Of a stretch of 64,000 bases of DNA, positions 38,982 to 46,528 are shown piece by piece (position 1 is the first letter of the stretch; every line of letters starts with the position of its first letter). The position numbers and the translations under genes were made by a program. The stretch comes from Symmachiella dynata (GTDB lineage: Bacteria > Planctomycetota > Planctomycetia > Planctomycetales > Planctomycetaceae), in contig NZ_CP036276.1 of assembly GCF_007747995.1 (NCBI RefSeq), positions 6,500,001 to 6,564,000 on the forward strand. Reading direction: 5' to 3'. The notes beneath the pieces are model-generated. The model was not told the DNA's origin. It worked only from the letters and a program-made list of their open reading frames with translations, and ran no database searches.

Positions 38982-41246
38982 ATGAAACGAATATTTGGGT
39001 CCCTCTGGGTCGTCCTGTTGGCAGCAACCTTCACTGCTGTCGCTCCCGCGATTACGAATGCCGCTGACAAAAAAATCGTCGACAAGCCGTTCTTGCAAGA
39101 TTATCGCGGCCCGTTCATCAAAGCCGCCGTCCCCAAAGGTCAAGATGTTCGAAAGTCAGGGAACAATATCCGCGCCATTGCGGTCGATACCAACGATATA
39201 ATCTGGGCAGCCACAGCCGACGGATTGATGCAAGTCCAGGAGGATCAATTGGTCTCTCCGGAGGGTGCGACCGTCGATGGCTCCACGTACGCGGTTTTGG
39301 CAAATCCCGACGGCTCATTGTGGGTCGGCGCATGGAATGGATTGTTTCGGATCGCAGACGGTCAGGTCACACAGGATACGGGGATCGAAGGGCCAGTCAC
39401 GTTGCTCAGACGAACAGGCAAACGGCTCTTTGCTGCCACGCCCCGCGGACTGTTTGAAAAAACCGACGATGCCTGGAAGAAAGTGGAAGGGCCCTGGGCC
39501 ACGAATATTTATGACGTCGTGGTGGCCGGCGACGATCTGTATATTGCTGCCTGGTCCGGATTGTATCGCCAATCGGCCGGCGAAACGCAGTGGTTGCAAG
39601 GCAAAGAACAGGCGCTGAGTCGCCGCGTCAATTCTCTGGCAGCGGATCGCAACGGTCATGTCTGGATCGGTTCGGCAGCGGGAATCGACATCTATCGCGA
39701 CGGCCGCCGCGTTGCTGCCATCACCCCCGAACAAGGACTCCCCTCGACAAGCATCCAGTGTCTGAACTTGGGGCATGACGGACGACTGTGGGTGGGCACG
39801 GCCATTGGTGCCGCTCGATTTGACGGCAAAAGTTGGTCGTTCCGGCACAGCCTGCGTTGGCTGCCCAATGACAACGTGCGCGACATTGAATTTTTGAAAG
39901 ACGGCTCAGCAGTCATCGCCACTGCGGACGGAATCAGCATCATTAGGCAACGGGAGATGACACTCGAATCGAAAGCAGATTTTTTTGAAAAACTCGTCCG
40001 CGCACGACACGTCCGTCCCCCCGGCCTGATGGAACGTTGCCGGCTGGCGGTTGCTGGTGATATCTCAACCTTCGAACCGATGGATACCGACAACGACGGC
40101 ATGTACACCGGCCTGTATATGGCGGCCGAATCCTATCGTTATGCTGTTACCAAAGCAGCTGATGCCAAGGCGAACGCCACCGAAGCGTTTCGCGCCATGG
40201 AGTTTCTACAAACCGTGACCGGCACCCCCGGATTCGTGGCCCGCACGGTGATTCCCGTCGAATGGGACCGCATGGCGGACGGCAACCGGACTTATACCGA
40301 CGAAGACGCCGCCGATCACTTTGCTCGCGAAGCACGTTGGAAGAAAGTGGAGAATCGTTGGCGAAAAAGCGCCGACGGAAAATGGCTGTGGAAAGGGGAC
40401 ACCAGTTCCGACGAAATCACCGGCCATTTCTTCAGCTATCCAATCTACTACGACCTGGTCGCCGACGATGCTGAGAAAAAACGTGTCGCCGCTTTGGTCG
40501 GACGGATTATGGATCACATCATCGAAGGCGGTTACGTTCTCCGCGACATCGATGGCCAAGCAACACGTTGGGGCGTTTGGTCGCCCGAAAAATTGAACAA
40601 CGATCCCAACTGGTGGTTGGAACGGGGCGTCAATTCAGTCGAGGCGCTGACCTATCTGACGATCGCGAAGCATGTCACAGGCGACGAGAAATATGATCGC
40701 GAAATTGATCGACTGCTTTACAAAGAGCACTACGCGGAAAACATCCTCAAGCCGCTCAGAACCGGCAACGACTATTTTACCTATATCGGATATCAGTTGT
40801 TGGCGTTTTGTTATCCGGCGCTGCTGACCTATGAACAAGACCCCGCGCGTCGCGTGCTCTATCGCGAAAGCATGGAAGCTTGGTTCGCCCCAGTGCGGCG
40901 GGATGACAGCCCGTTGTTTGGTTTTGTCTATGCGGCCTTCTCCGGCGGGGACGCAAAGCTCGGCGCGTGTGCTGAACTTCTGCGGGACGTGCCGTTGGAT
41001 CAGATTCAATACACCATTCACAACTCACAGCGAGAGGATGTTGAGGTCGTGGGAATCCCCGTTGAGGGACGAAGGCAAACCCGCCGTCTGCTTCCTCCCA
41101 GTGAACGGGCGGTGTTTCGTTGGGATCGCAATGTCTATTTCGTTGACCATGGGGCCGGCGGACGCTGGGAGGGCAGCACCGCGTTTTGGTTGATGCCCTA
41201 CTGGATGGGGCGATACTACGACCTCATCACCCCGCCGGAAAAATAG
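38982..41246 (+). CDS. Secreted Reg_prop beta-propeller protein with large C-terminal domain
   Basis: 754 residues, signal peptide (WVVLLAATFTAVAPAITNA); SD AAGGAAG. Residues about 60-330 hold Reg_prop-type propeller blades: NIRAIAVDTNDIIWAATADGLMQV, GSLWVGAWNGLFRI, GHVWIGSAAGIDIYRDG, GRLWVGTAIGAARFDG. In HTCS two-component sensors these are followed by a kinase, but here none is present: no transmembrane helix, histidine-kinase or regulator domain follows. The C-terminal about 380 residues (DNDGMYTGLYMAAESYRYAVTK..., EITGHFFSYPIYYDLV, YFTYIGYQLLAFCYPAL) look helical, possibly an alpha/alpha toroid, a fold common in glycan-active enzymes; this is inference. Confidence 0.75.
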   Translation: MKRIFGSLWVVLLAATFTAVAPAITNAADKKIVDKPFLQDYRGPFIKAAVPKGQDVRKSGNNIRAIAVDTNDIIWAATADGLMQVQEDQLVSPEGATVDGSTYAVLANPDGSLWVGAWNGLFRIADGQVTQDTGIEGPVTLLRRTGKRLFAATPRGLFEKTDDAWKKVEGPWATNIYDVVVAGDDLYIAAWSGLYRQSAGETQWLQGKEQALSRRVNSLAADRNGHVWIGSAAGIDIYRDGRRVAAITPEQGLPSTSIQCLNLGHDGRLWVGTAIGAARFDGKSWSFRHSLRWLPNDNVRDIEFLKDGSAVIATADGISIIRQREMTLESKADFFEKLVRARHVRPPGLMERCRLAVAGDISTFEPMDTDNDGMYTGLYMAAESYRYAVTKAADAKANATEAFRAMEFLQTVTGTPGFVARTVIPVEWDRMADGNRTYTDEDAADHFAREARWKKVENRWRKSADGKWLWKGDTSSDEITGHFFSYPIYYDLVADDAEKKRVAALVGRIMDHIIEGGYVLRDIDGQATRWGVWSPEKLNNDPNWWLERGVNSVEALTYLTIAKHVTGDEKYDREIDRLLYKEHYAENILKPLRTGNDYFTYIGYQLLAFCYPALLTYEQDPARRVLYRESMEAWFAPVRRDDSPLFGFVYAAFSGGDAKLGACAELLRDVPLDQIQYTIHNSQREDVEVVGIPVEGRRQTRRLLPPSERAVFRWDRNVYFVDHGAGGRWEGSTAFWLMPYWMGRYYDLITPPEK

Positions 41247-41372
41247 ATTCCTGCACGGCGGCGCCGCTATAGTCCATTTCCAGCTTGAAACTCGCGGCCG
41301 AGAGGCTGACAATGGCGAGCGGCGTTCTTCGTGCGGCGATCCATCGTGTCTTCCAGGCAAGGAACTTCGATC

Positions 41373-43769
41373 ATGCTTCAAGTCAAACGGTTCTCCCAGG
41401 CAGCGGTTTTCGTAGCAGTTTTACTTACTGGAATCGCAACGAACAATGCCGCCACAGCGGCTGAGGGAAATTTTCCCGAATTCATCGCCGTAGAAAAACA
41501 ACCCTTTGTCGCCGCCACCGACCGCTTGCTAGAGGGCCTCGAATACGTCGGCGACCCGTTGAGCGACGCCGATTTGCAGGCCATCGAAGCGGCAAAGAAA
41601 CTCCCCAATGATCGCGACTGCGTGGCGGAGATTCAAAAAGTCCTCGACAAACGCGCGCTGGCAGCCGTGCGTATTAACGCCGAAAGCCGCGTCTCGGTGG
41701 GCGAAGGGCCGGCGCCTAAGGAATTGATCGAACAAGGTTGGCGGACGTTTCTCATCAAAGTGCACAACGAAGCCGGCATTACCGCCAAACTGGTTGCGGA
41801 CAGCCCCAATGCCCAACCGGTCTATATGCGCGGCAAGGGTTCGCGACAACGACCGCAGACCGAGCAGAAACTTGTCCCCGCCGGTGCCGGTGAGTCACGA
41901 TTCCTCGACATCAACATGTTCGACAAACAACCGCTCAAGCCGACCCTCTCAGGACTGGAAGCTGAGTATCGGATCATCCAACTTTACAGCCGTGATGTCG
42001 GCAAACGAGAAGCCAAGTTGGCATTCAACGTAGGGCAGGGGACCCAGGACCTCGGGTTTCGTAATGCCGTGCCAATCCTGTTCGATTGCCTACCGGCGGT
42101 CGAGGTGACGTTGGGGATCAAGGACTTCGATGGCGAACCGACCACGGCGTCGCTCATCATTCGCGATGAAAAAGGACGCGTCTATCCCAATCCCGCACGC
42201 CGCATGGCGCCGGACTTTTTCTTTCACGATCAAATCTATCGCGCTGACGGCGAGTCGGTCCATCTGCCGCCGGGCGAGTATACCGTCGTCATCAACCGCG
42301 GCCCGGAATACTATGTCGACACCTTCCCCTTGACCGTCCAATCAGACGTCAAGAGTCAACAGGCTGACTTCACTTTGCGACGTTGGACACATCCGGCCAT
42401 ACAACGCTGGTTCTCCGGCGACCATCATGTCCACGCCGCTGGTTGCGCGCATTACGACAGCCCCACCGAAGGCGTCACGCCGGCCGATATGATGCGGCAC
42501 ATTCTCGGCGAAGACCTCAACGTCGGCTGCGTTCTCAGTTGGGGGCCTTGCTGGTACACACAAAAGCAATATTTCGAAGGCAAAACCTCTGCCTTGTCGC
42601 GGCCCAACTACTTGATGCGGTATGACGTGGAGGTCAGTGGATTCCCCTCATCCCACGCCGGGCATCTCTGCTTGTTGCGGCTCAACGAAGACGACTACGA
42701 AGGGACTGAACTCATCGAAGAATGGCCGAGTTGGACGTTGCCCGTTTTGGCCTGGGGGAAAAAACAAGGAGGCGTCGTCGGCTACAGCCATAGCGGTTGG
42801 GGCTTGGAACTGCCCGATTACGACGATCGTGGCAACCGGGTGCCGAACAAAAAAGGCAAAGCAGCGGATAAGCTTCCCGACTATGCCATGCCTCCCTTTG
42901 ACGGCATCGGCGCCAACGAATACATCGTGACTGTCACCCACGACGTCTGCGACTTTATCTCCGCTGTCGACACCCCATCGATTTGGGAATTGAACATCTG
43001 GTACCACACGCTCAACTGTGGGTACCGCGCCCGCATCAGCGGCGAAACCGATTTCCCCTGCATCTACGGCGACAAAGTTGGACTGGGCCGCATTTACGTC
43101 AAACTCCCCGAAGACCAGGAGCTGAATTACGACAACTGGGTCGCCGGTTTGAAGGATGGACGCAGCTATTGTGGCGACGGGTTGAGCCACATTGTTGATT
43201 TCAAAGCCAACGACGTCGGCGTCGGCGAGCCGGGCAGCGGCGGCGAAATCAGCCAGTTGGATATTCCCGAAGCGGGCACGGTCAAAGTTGAGTTCGACGT
43301 CTCGGCCTTACTAGCTGAAGCACCGACGCCTGAGACCGAACGCATTCGCAATCGACGCCTCGACGAAAAACCGTATTGGCATCTCGAACGCGCACGGGTC
43401 GGCGAGACACGGACCGTGCCGGTGGAAGTCATCGTCAACGGCTATCCCGTTGCAACGAAACACATCGTGGCTGACGGAGAAATGCAGCATTTGAGCTTTG
43501 GCGTCAAAATCGACAAATCGAGTTGGATCGCCGTGCGGATTTTGCCGTCGGTGCACACCAACCCGGTGTTCGTGCAAGTCGGCGACAAACCGATTCGCGC
43601 CAGTCGCCGCAGCGCACAATGGTGCCTAGATGCGGTCGACGTCTGCTGGGACCGCAAAGAAGGCCGCATTGGTGTTCGCCGCCCGGAAGAAAAACAACAA
43701 GCCGCCGCCGCCTACCAAAAAGCGAGAGAAAGTTACACAAAAATCCTAGAAGAATCAGTCGCCGACTAA
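41373..43769 (+). CDS. Secreted CehA/McbA-type metallohydrolase (PHP superfamily)
   Basis: 798 residues from the ATG at 41373 (SD AAGGAA), with a signal peptide ending TAAEG. After an N-terminal region and a beta-sandwich segment (about 230-330; VTLGIKDFDGEPTTASLIIRDEKG), the PHP-like domain starts with the metal motif GDHHVHAAGC, then SHAGHLCLLRLNE, VVGYSHSGWG and VTHDVCDFISAV. The ending has further beta strands. CehA and McbA hydrolyse carbaryl; related planctomycete proteins are of unknown substrate. The gene follows the Reg_prop gene by 126 bases, same strand, so co-expression is plausible. Confidence 0.83.
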   Translation: MLQVKRFSQAAVFVAVLLTGIATNNAATAAEGNFPEFIAVEKQPFVAATDRLLEGLEYVGDPLSDADLQAIEAAKKLPNDRDCVAEIQKVLDKRALAAVRINAESRVSVGEGPAPKELIEQGWRTFLIKVHNEAGITAKLVADSPNAQPVYMRGKGSRQRPQTEQKLVPAGAGESRFLDINMFDKQPLKPTLSGLEAEYRIIQLYSRDVGKREAKLAFNVGQGTQDLGFRNAVPILFDCLPAVEVTLGIKDFDGEPTTASLIIRDEKGRVYPNPARRMAPDFFFHDQIYRADGESVHLPPGEYTVVINRGPEYYVDTFPLTVQSDVKSQQADFTLRRWTHPAIQRWFSGDHHVHAAGCAHYDSPTEGVTPADMMRHILGEDLNVGCVLSWGPCWYTQKQYFEGKTSALSRPNYLMRYDVEVSGFPSSHAGHLCLLRLNEDDYEGTELIEEWPSWTLPVLAWGKKQGGVVGYSHSGWGLELPDYDDRGNRVPNKKGKAADKLPDYAMPPFDGIGANEYIVTVTHDVCDFISAVDTPSIWELNIWYHTLNCGYRARISGETDFPCIYGDKVGLGRIYVKLPEDQELNYDNWVAGLKDGRSYCGDGLSHIVDFKANDVGVGEPGSGGEISQLDIPEAGTVKVEFDVSALLAEAPTPETERIRNRRLDEKPYWHLERARVGETRTVPVEVIVNGYPVATKHIVADGEMQHLSFGVKIDKSSWIAVRILPSVHTNPVFVQVGDKPIRASRRSAQWCLDAVDVCWDRKEGRIGVRRPEEKQQAAAAYQKARESYTKILEESVAD

Positions 43770-43936: not shown

Positions 43937-45394
43937 ATGATCTGTATTCCCATTGCGCCGGAATCGCACACGTTGGCTCGGGCCGACTTGTACAATGCCG
44001 AGCCACAGTGTGACGTTGTTGAAATCCGGCTGGACTGCCTGCACAAGACGCCCAACGTGGCCAAGCTGATCGAAGGCCGCCGTAAACCGGTGATGATTTC
44101 CTGTCGCCGCCAAGAGGATGGTGGTTCCTGGAACCGCGATGAGGCCGAACGCGTGACGGTTCTGCGGCAGGCGATTGCCGATGGACCAGAATTCGTTGAT
44201 ATCGACGTCGACATCGCCGGCAAGATTCCTCGCTACGGACCGACGATGCGGATCGTCAGTTTTACGCATTCACAAGGCTCGTTGCCCGATCTCAAGACAA
44301 TCTACCAACGCGCGTGTGATGCCGATGCAGATATGGTGCGATTCACCGCGCCCACGCCGACCTTAGAGGCTGCTTGGCCGTTGCTGTTAGCGCTGAACTT
44401 CCAAGGCAAAGCACCGGTCATCGTCAGCGGCACGGGGGACGCCGGGTTGACGTTGGCACTGACGAGTTGCAAATTGGGATCGCCATTTATTTATGCAGCG
44501 CTCGAACAGGGCATGGAGGTTCAAGAGGGACAAGTCAGCGTCCGCATTCTCGAAGAGACATACCGCTGGCGAGACATTTCGCAGCAAACCCACCTTGTGG
44601 CCGTGATGGGATTTGAAGCGCCGCAAACAAAGACCGTACGGGCCTTAAACGCGGCCTTTGCCTATTCACATCTCAACATCCGCTGCCTACCGGTCGAAAC
44701 ACAATTGCTGGAACGGATGATGCAGATGCTGGAAAAGCTGCACATCAAAGCAGCACTGCTTGACCCTAAGAACCGCGAAACCATGTTGCGTCTCGCCGAC
44801 CACATTGAAAAATCGGCAGAGATCTCACAGCAAGCCGATATGCTGCTGAAGTCCGACAAGGGTTGGACGGCTTACAGCACGCTGTGGCGGTCCGCACTCA
44901 AGGCCTTAGAAACGACGCTCGGTCCCGCCCGCGGCGATCAAAAACCACTCGACCACCGCAACGTACTGGTCGTCGGCGCCAATTCCACAGCCCGCGCAGC
45001 CATCTACGCCAGCAAGCGCCGCGACACAATCCTCAGCATCACAGCCGGAGACGACAAACGCGCACAGTTATTGTCGCAATTGTTCAACCTCCGCTACGTC
45101 CCCACAGCCAACGTGTTCTCCACGCTGTGCGATGTGATCATCTCCACCGAAAGCGAGTTTGAACAAGGGAAAAAAACCAAACTGCCCGCTAGTTTTCTGC
45201 GAGACTCGATGGCGGTGATGGACCTCGACGGTATGCCGCAAGACACACCGTTTATCAAAGAAGCACGCTCACGGTTCTGCAAAGTCGTCGAACCGGTCAA
45301 AATTTCAGTCGAACAACTCGCCTCACAATTCACCGCCATCTCCGGCCAACCCGCACCGCTAGAAGTTCTCGAAACGGCATTGAAGGCGGAGTGA
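43937..45394 (+). CDS. AroD-AroE-like fusion protein with altered active-site residues
   Basis: 485 residues. Residues 1-215 match type I dehydroquinate dehydratase (AroD): VEIRLD (Glu29/Arg31), THSQGSLPD, DADMVRFTAP, GSPFIYA. Residues 216-485 match shikimate dehydrogenase (AroE): a substrate-domain-like part (ALNAAFAYSHLNIRCLPV), a Rossmann motif LVVGANSTARAA (about 344-355) and an AroE-like end (SVEQLASQFTAISGQPAPLEVL). Key residues differ: the AroD Schiff-base lysine is Arg135 (codon CGA), the AroD active-site arginine is missing (LTLALTS at about 171-177), and the AroE substrate motifs HS.SP and NTD are not recognisable. If active, it would catalyse shikimate steps 3-4; loss of function or a new role is also possible. 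Confidence 0.7.
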   Translation: MICIPIAPESHTLARADLYNAEPQCDVVEIRLDCLHKTPNVAKLIEGRRKPVMISCRRQEDGGSWNRDEAERVTVLRQAIADGPEFVDIDVDIAGKIPRYGPTMRIVSFTHSQGSLPDLKTIYQRACDADADMVRFTAPTPTLEAAWPLLLALNFQGKAPVIVSGTGDAGLTLALTSCKLGSPFIYAALEQGMEVQEGQVSVRILEETYRWRDISQQTHLVAVMGFEAPQTKTVRALNAAFAYSHLNIRCLPVETQLLERMMQMLEKLHIKAALLDPKNRETMLRLADHIEKSAEISQQADMLLKSDKGWTAYSTLWRSALKALETTLGPARGDQKPLDHRNVLVVGANSTARAAIYASKRRDTILSITAGDDKRAQLLSQLFNLRYVPTANVFSTLCDVIISTESEFEQGKKTKLPASFLRDSMAVMDLDGMPQDTPFIKEARSRFCKVVEPVKISVEQLASQFTAISGQPAPLEVLETALKAE

Positions 45395-45425: not shown

Positions 45426-46400
45426 TTATTTCTTCGTCTTGCGAACCTTCGCAGCGATGCGCGCGAGCACCTGCTGTGCCCGGCGTTCCCCATCGCTGAC
45501 CGCACTGGCGTGGGCCCCGTTCATGTTGACGAACAAAGTCTGCACCATCTTGCGATAGCCTTCGAACTCGCGCTGTGCGTGTTGTATGCCGTCGAAGACT
45601 TGTTTGGGAACAATATATTGCTCGTACGTCTGTTTCATCCAGTCCCGTTTGGGCGCCGACGTTGTGTCTCCCACATCACAATCCTTCAAATATCGTGACA
45701 CCCGCGAAGCGGTTTCGCGCAACCACCGCCGCGCATCCATCCACGCCGCCTTGTCCGCCGTATCGGCGGACAGTTGCTCTTCATGGTTTAAGTCGCGATT
45801 CAGCGAGCCCAAGCGGGTCAGGGTATCGACCAATTTTTTGCGGCAGAGCGCCAAGTCCCGCTCGGCTTTGACGATCGCTTTCCAATCGGTGTCGATATTT
45901 TCAAACAGATCGCCGATATCCGTCGGCACTGGGCCACCGGGCAGCGGCGCGAATGGCGGAGCTGAAGACGGTGCGGCGGGTGGCGCGATCGGAGGTGCAA
46001 CTGGCATGGCCGGAGCGAGTAACGAAATCGCGACTCCTGAATCCACTCCAGGGACCGGATCGGTCAACGGTTGATCGAAATACGCTGACGCCCCCTGCTG
46101 AGCATCATAGGTCACCCCATATTGTGTCCATTGCCAAACGCACCCCGGCTCCAGTCCCAACCAACTCAGGACCGTCCGCAACGTCAACTGCTGGCGCTGT
46201 CGATAGCTGCGGAAGGTCTCGTCAGGGATATTCACCACCACTCCGCAGGGCAAATGGGACGGCTTGTACCAGACCCAGAGGAACTGCTGCGGCGAATCCC
46301 CGCAAGGGACCCGTTCCCAACTCTGCGAAGCAGGCCGGGCCGAAAAATTTGCAATGACGGATGAGAGACGAGCGCTTCCCTCGAAATCAATTTGGCTCAT
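45426..46400 (-). CDS. Hypothetical protein, beta-rich N-terminus and Pro/Ala-rich linker
   Basis: 324 residues from the ATG at 46400 (the frame to 46487 crosses a REP-like pair and is rejected). An N-terminal domain (1-115) has Trp/Gly-rich strands (VVVNIPDETFRSYRQRQQLTLRTVLSWLGL, GCVWQWTQYGVTYDAQQG). A linker of Pro and Ala follows (about 130-165, PPIAPPAAPSSAPPFAPLPG), then a helical Lys/Arg-rich C-terminus. No signal peptide. I recognise no family. The gene converges with the AroD-AroE-like gene, 31 bases apart. Confidence 0.65.
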   Translation of the reverse strand: MSQIDFEGSARLSSVIANFSARPASQSWERVPCGDSPQQFLWVWYKPSHLPCGVVVNIPDETFRSYRQRQQLTLRTVLSWLGLEPGCVWQWTQYGVTYDAQQGASAYFDQPLTDPVPGVDSGVAISLLAPAMPVAPPIAPPAAPSSAPPFAPLPGGPVPTDIGDLFENIDTDWKAIVKAERDLALCRKKLVDTLTRLGSLNRDLNHEEQLSADTADKAAWMDARRWLRETASRVSRYLKDCDVGDTTSAPKRDWMKQTYEQYIVPKQVFDGIQHAQREFEGYRKMVQTLFVNMNGAHASAVSDGERRAQQVLARIAAKVRKTKK

Positions 46401-46461
46401 CGGCTTATTCGCCCTTGCTCCTCGACATCTGAAACTTGGTAGCCAGCTCAAATATAGGTGC

Positions 46462-46528
46462 CACTGGCGGCTTGTCCGCCGGTGCAAACCGTGCGGCTGT
46501 CAAAACACGGCTGGGCAAGCCAGCAATG
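46462..46528. repeat. BIME-like pair of inverted 23-nt REP-like units (second copy)
   Basis: Unit 1 (46462-46484, CACTGGCGGCTTGTCC...) and unit 2 (46506-46528, minus strand CATTGCTGGCTTGCCC...) repeat the arrangement at 37426-37493: same order, opposite orientation, spacer 21 bases. In the downstream portion 25 of 31 bases (46501-46531 versus 37466-37496) are identical by my count. It lies about 85 bases after the hydrolase stop and about 60 before the start at 46400. Confidence 0.72.

Follow-up and report, generated by a model that had tools for sequence, protein, structure and literature searches.

The DNA analyzed here, referred to as the window, is a 64,000-nucleotide stretch of the Symmachiella dynata genome. 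In it, an ATG start opens an uninterrupted reading frame of 485 codons at exactly 43937-45394 on the forward strand, which encodes an AroD-like half fused to an AroE-like half. The features of this gene, together with its upstream neighbor, are as follows. Catalytic positions are numbered as in E. coli AroD and AroE, which were added to an alignment of 105 window-type relatives and 15 canonical AroDE proteins; the identities of the two E. coli reference sequences were confirmed by matches to solved structures.

41331..43769, + strand: CehA/McbA-family metallohydrolase, the upstream neighbor (NF038032, E=1e-84)
43937..45394, + strand: AroD-AroE fusion paralogue of 485 aa in which both ancestral active sites are lost (reading frame, profile matches, fold match)
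43937..44563, + strand: AroD-like TIM-barrel half, residues 1-209 (PF01487 over residues 3-209, E=2.8e-31)
44264..44266, + strand: Thr110 codon at the position of catalytic His143 (His in 1 of 105 relatives, Thr in 85)
44339..44341, + strand: Arg135 codon (cga) at the position of the Schiff-base Lys170 (Lys in 103 of 105 relatives)
44456..44458, + strand: Ala174 codon at the position of Arg213, for the substrate carboxylate (Ser in 100 of 105 relatives, Arg in none)
44504..44518, + strand: family-specific remodelled beta8/lid motif E190-x-G192-x-E194 (YAALExGME; alignment conservation)
44579..45391, + strand: AroE-like half, residues 215-485 (TIGR00507, E=5.6e-16)
44627..44635, + strand: Thr231-Lys-Thr233 replacing AroE Ser14-x-Ser16, with the HSxSP motif lost (alignment)
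44774..44776, + strand: Arg280 at the position of AroE catalytic Lys65 (alignment)
44882..44884, + strand: Leu316 at the position of AroE catalytic Asp102, with the NTD motif lost (alignment)
44975..44992, + strand: degenerate Rossmann glycine motif GANSTA, residues 347-352 (alignment)
45047..45052, + strand: Gly371-Asp372 in place of Arg150-Thr151 for the NADP 2'-phosphate (alignment)

A preliminary description of the locus from its sequence had recognized the folds of type I dehydroquinate dehydratase (DHQase) and shikimate dehydrogenase (SDH) in the two halves, and profile searches and structure prediction bear this out. Pfam places the AroD half in DHquinase_I above its cut-off. The TIGR00507 match extends over residues 221-483 and scores 58.5 bits, against an equivalog cut-off of 200 bits, and the bifunctional model NF006802, which has a cut-off of 598 bits, spans residues 1-466 at a score of 72.5 bits. 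An AlphaFold2 model of the protein, computed with 47 relatives as input, is confident nearly throughout (mean pLDDT 91.6, pTM 0.90) and includes the AroE fold with its substrate and Rossmann domains (Foldseek matches include 2hk8 and 1nyt). The best solved match is the Arabidopsis DHQ-SDH enzyme (2o7q/2o7s), which aligns over the full length with a TM of 0.86-0.87, an rmsd of 3.2-3.5 and ~20% identity. Thus, the protein retains not only each single fold but also the way in which the two domains pack in the bifunctional enzyme. The plant enzyme (PDB 2gpt, 2o7q, 2o7s) places its two domains in the same relative positions; however, it is catalytically intact at both sites, unlike the window protein. 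DHQase and SDH are the only domains in the window protein; a shikimate kinase domain is absent, and no DNA-binding domain was found. We also considered whether the reading frame could be an artefact or the product of a frameshift, and rejected this because the frame is intact and the copy in a sister genome is 96% identical.

A search of the genome, which consists of one contig of 7.77 Mb, for separate functional genes recovered an intact AroDE fusion and a third AroE, while AroQ (type II DHQase) is absent. The intact fusion (G000:C1:1311761-1313272, locus L002) has 504 aa and is 33% identical to the window protein over the whole length. It keeps Glu46, Arg48, Arg82, His143, Lys170, Arg213 and Gln236 of AroD, with Asp at the Glu86 position, as well as Ser14, Ser16, Lys65, Asp102, Tyr215 and the NADP arginine of AroE. 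The two proteins have the same domain order, a similar length and the same fold family, and the intact copy is evidently the parent paralogue; by contrast, only this copy retains the catalytic and NADP residues of both halves. About 200 bp downstream of it lies a reading frame (L002:3210-3743) that, from its sequence, we take to be a shikimate kinase. The third AroE is a stand-alone protein (G000:C1:3551837-3552655, locus L005) that scores above the NCBIfam aroE cut-off and may be a shikimate or a quinate dehydrogenase. Accordingly, the window gene is not the sole AroDE of this genome, and replacement by a type II DHQase was rejected because AroQ is absent; for the same reason the dehydroquinate step is presumably carried out by the intact AroDE. 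The window gene is therefore a spare paralogue, which the intact fusion and the third AroE of this genome free from pathway duty.

In the AroE half, substrate, catalytic and cofactor positions have all changed: Ser14 and Ser16 are Thr231 and Thr233, Lys65 is Arg280, Asn86 is Asp301, Asp102 is Leu316, Tyr215 is Gly432 and the NADP-binding Arg150 is Gly371. The HS.SP and NTD motifs are therefore missing, as the preliminary description had stated. In the alignment, the loss of Ser14/Ser16, Lys65, Asp102, Tyr215 and the NADP arginine extends across the whole family; at the Lys65 position, Gly (59 of the 105 relatives), Ala (19) and Ser (11) predominate, and Lys is outside the five commonest residues. 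The NADP(H) motif NRT..R that follows beta-2 is absent as well. The window protein reads Ala370-Gly371-Asp372 here and its relatives have acidic or small residues, most of them having lost the NADP arginine and gained an acidic residue. The Rossmann motif GANSTA had been described as kept, and this holds for its first glycine, Gly347, which is present in 104 of 105 relatives; the motif as such, however, is degenerate, with GxGG reading GANS in the window protein and the second and third glycines found in ~70 of 105 relatives. Overall, the former catalytic and cofactor positions of the AroE half are conserved to the same degree as background (permutation p=0.57), compared with p<1e-4 in the canonical copies.

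The AroD half presents a different pattern. Relative to E. coli AroD, Lys170, His143 and Arg213 are replaced by Arg135, Thr110 and Ala174, Glu46, Arg48, Arg82 and Gln236 are retained as Glu29, Arg31, Arg57 and Gln199, and the Glu86 position is occupied by Asp61. The absence of the family arginine that had been pointed out for the window protein proved to be a trait of the entire family. The exchange of the Schiff-base lysine for arginine is likewise real in the window protein, but it is not shared by the family: Arg occupies this position in 2 of 105 relatives, namely the window species and its sister genome G102, while the third member of the genus (G051) has Lys. A lysine at a shifted position does not rescue the site, as none of the alignment gaps brings a Lys close to Arg135. 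Of the pair Glu29/Arg31, which had been described as kept, both residues are present in the window protein, and Glu46 is found in 105 of 105 relatives; Arg31, however, is a minority state (Arg in 15 of 105 relatives, Cys in 75), and the pair is thus just half conserved. The cup of the AroD half is otherwise mostly retained, with Glu46, Arg82 (105 of 105), a Tyr at the Phe225 position, Gln236 (101 of 105) and, in nearly all relatives, Lys170. Around the old site, new invariant residues have appeared, that is, Ser174 for Arg213, Thr110 for His143, Trp184, Ala188, Leu189, Glu190 and Gly192, and these new invariants of the AroD half sit at the barrel mouth, at strand ends and in the lid. Glu190 and Gly192 are present in all 105 relatives and differ in the canonical copies, and Glu194 is invariant in an alignment of 47 sequences. 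The old AroD site is slightly more conserved than background (permutation p=0.08). Judged from the alignment, the Lys-to-Arg exchange is a late, species-level change; the loss of His143, Arg213 and the AroE/NADP site came earlier and is shared by the family. Given that nearly all relatives retain the lysine, Schiff-base formation may still occur in the family at large.

It is highly improbable that the protein, despite its unusual residues, has remained a dehydroquinate dehydratase or shikimate dehydrogenase. The AroD half passes the Pfam cut-off for DHquinase_I, and Lys170, Glu46, Arg82 and Gln236 remain in most relatives, which speaks in favor of this reading. However, His143 and Arg213 are gone in essentially the entire family, the catalytic and NADP residues of the AroE half are lost with no constraint remaining on these positions, the scores fall far short of the NCBIfam equivalog cut-offs, and the genome has a complete canonical set at other loci. 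The Pfam score makes it possible for proteins of this family to be named dehydroquinate dehydratases despite the missing His143 and Arg213, and this represents a mis-annotation hazard.

Between the window species and G102, dN/dS for the window gene is 0.063 (NG86) to 0.068 (YN00), compared with 0.047 for the intact AroDE in the same species pair. By this measure, the window gene is under strong purifying selection, and because both species of the pair already carry Arg, this selection went on without the lysine. Among 47 diverse sequences, 39 positions are invariant; in the alignment with the canonical copies, 39 positions are conserved in a family-specific manner, most of them in the AroD half. 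The mean column entropy of the window type is 1.10 bits in the AroD half and 1.96 bits in the AroE half, with corresponding values of 0.92 and 1.23 bits in the canonical copies. This pattern of conservation suggests that the AroD barrel contains a remodelled small-molecule site and that the AroE half is kept for its shape and not for its chemistry. That the gene is instead a pseudogene decaying after duplication is hardly credible: while the active-site substitutions, the long stem branch of the window type and a frameshifted relative (G063) would fit with decay, more than 100 relatives have full-length reading frames, the dN/dS of ~0.065 compares with ~0.047 for the intact copy, and 39 positions have remained invariant. 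For the family and for the window species pair, dN/dS and conservation refute decay.

The neighborhood of the gene is variable. None of the gene families around ~103 window-type loci is a constant neighbor. The CehA/McbA metallohydrolase is the sole recurrent upstream neighbor and lies immediately upstream on the same strand in 17 of the ~103 loci, with a gap of 9-264 bp; its adjacency looks like ancestral synteny and is outside the mechanism proposed below. Other neighbors include a glycosyltransferase-3 protein, an acyltransferase, a CDP-alcohol transferase, a P-type ATPase and a PfkB kinase. The glycosyltransferase-3 gene (L084:2432-3466, - strand, and congeners) lies near the paralogue; at two loci it is located directly upstream, in the opposite orientation. 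From its sequence, it is presumably trpD (anthranilate phosphoribosyltransferase), which would be a possible link to aromatic amino acid synthesis in this one genus. We found no adjacent cognate activator or regulator conserved at the >100 loci, and the neighbor families sampled are not transcriptional activators. A function based on an operon was therefore rejected: the neighbors are not conserved, the metallohydrolase is present at a minority of loci and the trpD-like gene in a single lineage. In other words, the gene stays intact in changing neighborhoods and thus behaves as a stand-alone trans-acting unit. In the window itself, a 353-aa protein with a proline-rich middle is encoded convergently with the AroDE paralogue (45426-46487, - strand) and has no match in Pfam or NCBIfam, and a 754-aa protein with beta-propeller repeats of the two-component-regulator type (PF07494) is encoded upstream of, and on the same strand as, the CehA/McbA gene (38982-41246, + strand).

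We suggest, tentatively but as our preferred reading, that the window protein is a pseudoenzyme that uses the AroD pocket for ligand sensing or regulation and is convergent with the fungal repressors QutR, GaaX and TanX. In this model, the AroDE fusion was duplicated, most simply in the ancestor of a planctomycete family, and one copy would have become a pseudoenzyme. As read from the alignments, its AroE half has lost the substrate, catalytic and NADP residues and is left with no special constraint at these sites, while the AroD half has lost the His and Arg required for dehydroquinate dehydration and kept most of the cup. The sequence analysis establishes the duplication, these losses, the retained fold and the selection; the further steps are inferred. 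This cup would then bind a shikimate-pathway metabolite or a similar keto-acid without turnover. In most species, the ligand would probably be trapped reversibly on the lysine as an imine; in the window species, which has Arg in place of the lysine, binding would have to be non-covalent. Finally, the fused AroE half would relay the binding state to a protein partner, and the protein would function as a sensor or regulator of aromatic metabolism. The missing DNA-binding domain, the absence of a conserved regulator gene beside it, in contrast to the fungal activator/repressor pairs, and its loss from a few genomes speak against this reading. The preliminary description had likewise proposed a new role from retained fold and lost chemistry. 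That proposal stands in part, with the fold kept, the sites lost, a spare copy and family-wide purifying selection; its limit is that the loss of the lysine is not family-wide.

In fungi, the SK-DHQase-SDH part of AROM gave rise to the repressors QutR (A. nidulans), GaaX and TanX, for which the working hypothesis is that they are catalytically inactive and still bind an inducer (PMC10512348). In QutR/QA-1S, GaaX and TanX, AroD and AroE domains were thus likewise taken over from the shikimate pathway by proteins thought to be inactive metabolite sensors (PMC10512348). However, they arose independently in fungi, contain three AROM domains including shikimate kinase, and are accompanied by an adjacent Zn2Cys6 activator. 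Because the planctomycete protein has neither the kinase domain nor an adjacent activator, the two systems share at most a working principle. A broader version of our preferred reading, in which a dead bifunctional twin gave rise to a family-wide planctomycete metabolite sensor that is mostly imine-trapping and is a bacterial counterpart of QutR with an independent origin, is rather unlikely.

The sequence cannot decide between a ligand sensor and a new enzyme. The latter, which we regard as possible but doubtful, would use the Schiff-base lysine in the remodelled barrel for a different imine-based reaction, in which another keto-acid might undergo dehydration, retro-aldol cleavage or isomerisation, for instance; the AroE half would serve as a scaffold, and the two species with Arg would have secondarily lost or altered the reaction. 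A near-universal lysine (103 of 105 relatives) is at least as compatible with an enzyme as with a sensor, Glu46, Arg82 and Gln236 are nearly invariant, and Thr110, Ser174, Trp184, Ala188, Glu190 and Gly192 cluster at strand ends and the lid. By contrast, the strong purifying selection in the Arg-bearing species pair indicates that a conserved function survives there without the lysine, which counts against a new enzyme in the window species and not in the family. Moreover, there is no obvious general base among the conserved new residues to replace His143, and no neighborhood that hints at a pathway. The Lys-bearing and Arg-bearing relatives provide a built-in test of how important Schiff-base chemistry is. 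As a precedent for the pseudoenzyme reading, a parallel to Arg135 is found in Candida albicans Aro1, the DHQase of which has no suitable active-site lysine, with Arg1194 as the sole candidate, and no detectable activity (PMC9074039). In Aro1, however, the AroE domain is active, and the inactive DHQase is part of a working multi-enzyme and is compensated for by a type II DHQase (Dqd1).

A protein partner of another kind would be the intact AroDE itself, with which the window protein could form heteromers that tune stability, channelling or feedback in a structural or allosteric manner. The domain arrangement, which over the whole length is that of the Arabidopsis bifunctional enzyme, the dimerisation of type I DHQase domains as in C. 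albicans Aro1 (PMC9074039), and the co-occurrence of both copies in most sampled genomes are consistent with this idea. Yet the intact copy is retained in genomes that are without the dead copy and the two genes are never adjacent in the loci examined, and we consider such a partnership quite unlikely. Whether it is a sensor, our preferred reading, or a new enzyme, the window type would represent a clean natural conversion of an enzyme to a regulator or to a new enzyme, in which a bifunctional enzyme was duplicated, lost both activities and was then conserved in a family.

The window type accompanies the canonical type in nearly all of 150 genomes sampled from the window's order, which belong to a single family. 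There are about seven exceptions: the window type is missing in the near-complete genomes G039, G042, G085, G095, G141 and G148 and frameshifted in G063, and G126 is uncertain. These few genomes argue that the gene is not essential everywhere. Named matches belong to Planctomycetaceae/Planctomycetales and include Gimesia, Schlesneria, Thalassoglobus and Planctomicrobium. In a phylum-wide sample of 292 genomes, the remaining families of the class have a single match, which scores 395-524 bits to the canonical copy and only 169-217 bits to the window type, and thirteen matches examined from outside the class are all canonical too. We found no description of a planctomycete AroDE paralogue or pseudoenzyme in the literature searched, which left most subscription journals outside its coverage.

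The window type is monophyletic (SH-aLRT 100), and its clade has a long stem branch of 1.4 changes per column. In a quick unconstrained tree, this clade falls outside the canonical AroDE of the class; a tree that joins it with the canonical AroDE of the family, however, improves the likelihood by 9.15, and the topology test does not reject it (p-AU 0.66). A duplication older than the class is therefore disfavored, and the simpler reading of the trees, with caution about long branches, is a duplication at the base of the family. Two genomes carry unusual window-type genes. In the single-contig genome G063, from a Gimesia-like genus, the gene is split by a frame change (G063:C1:3296590-3297845, locus L225), which is either a natural pseudogene or a sequencing error. 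G010 has two diverged window-type copies (C3:266807-268252, locus L052, and C41:95136-96638, locus L065) in addition to a canonical AroDE, and the second of these is strongly diverged, including around the old Arg213 site.
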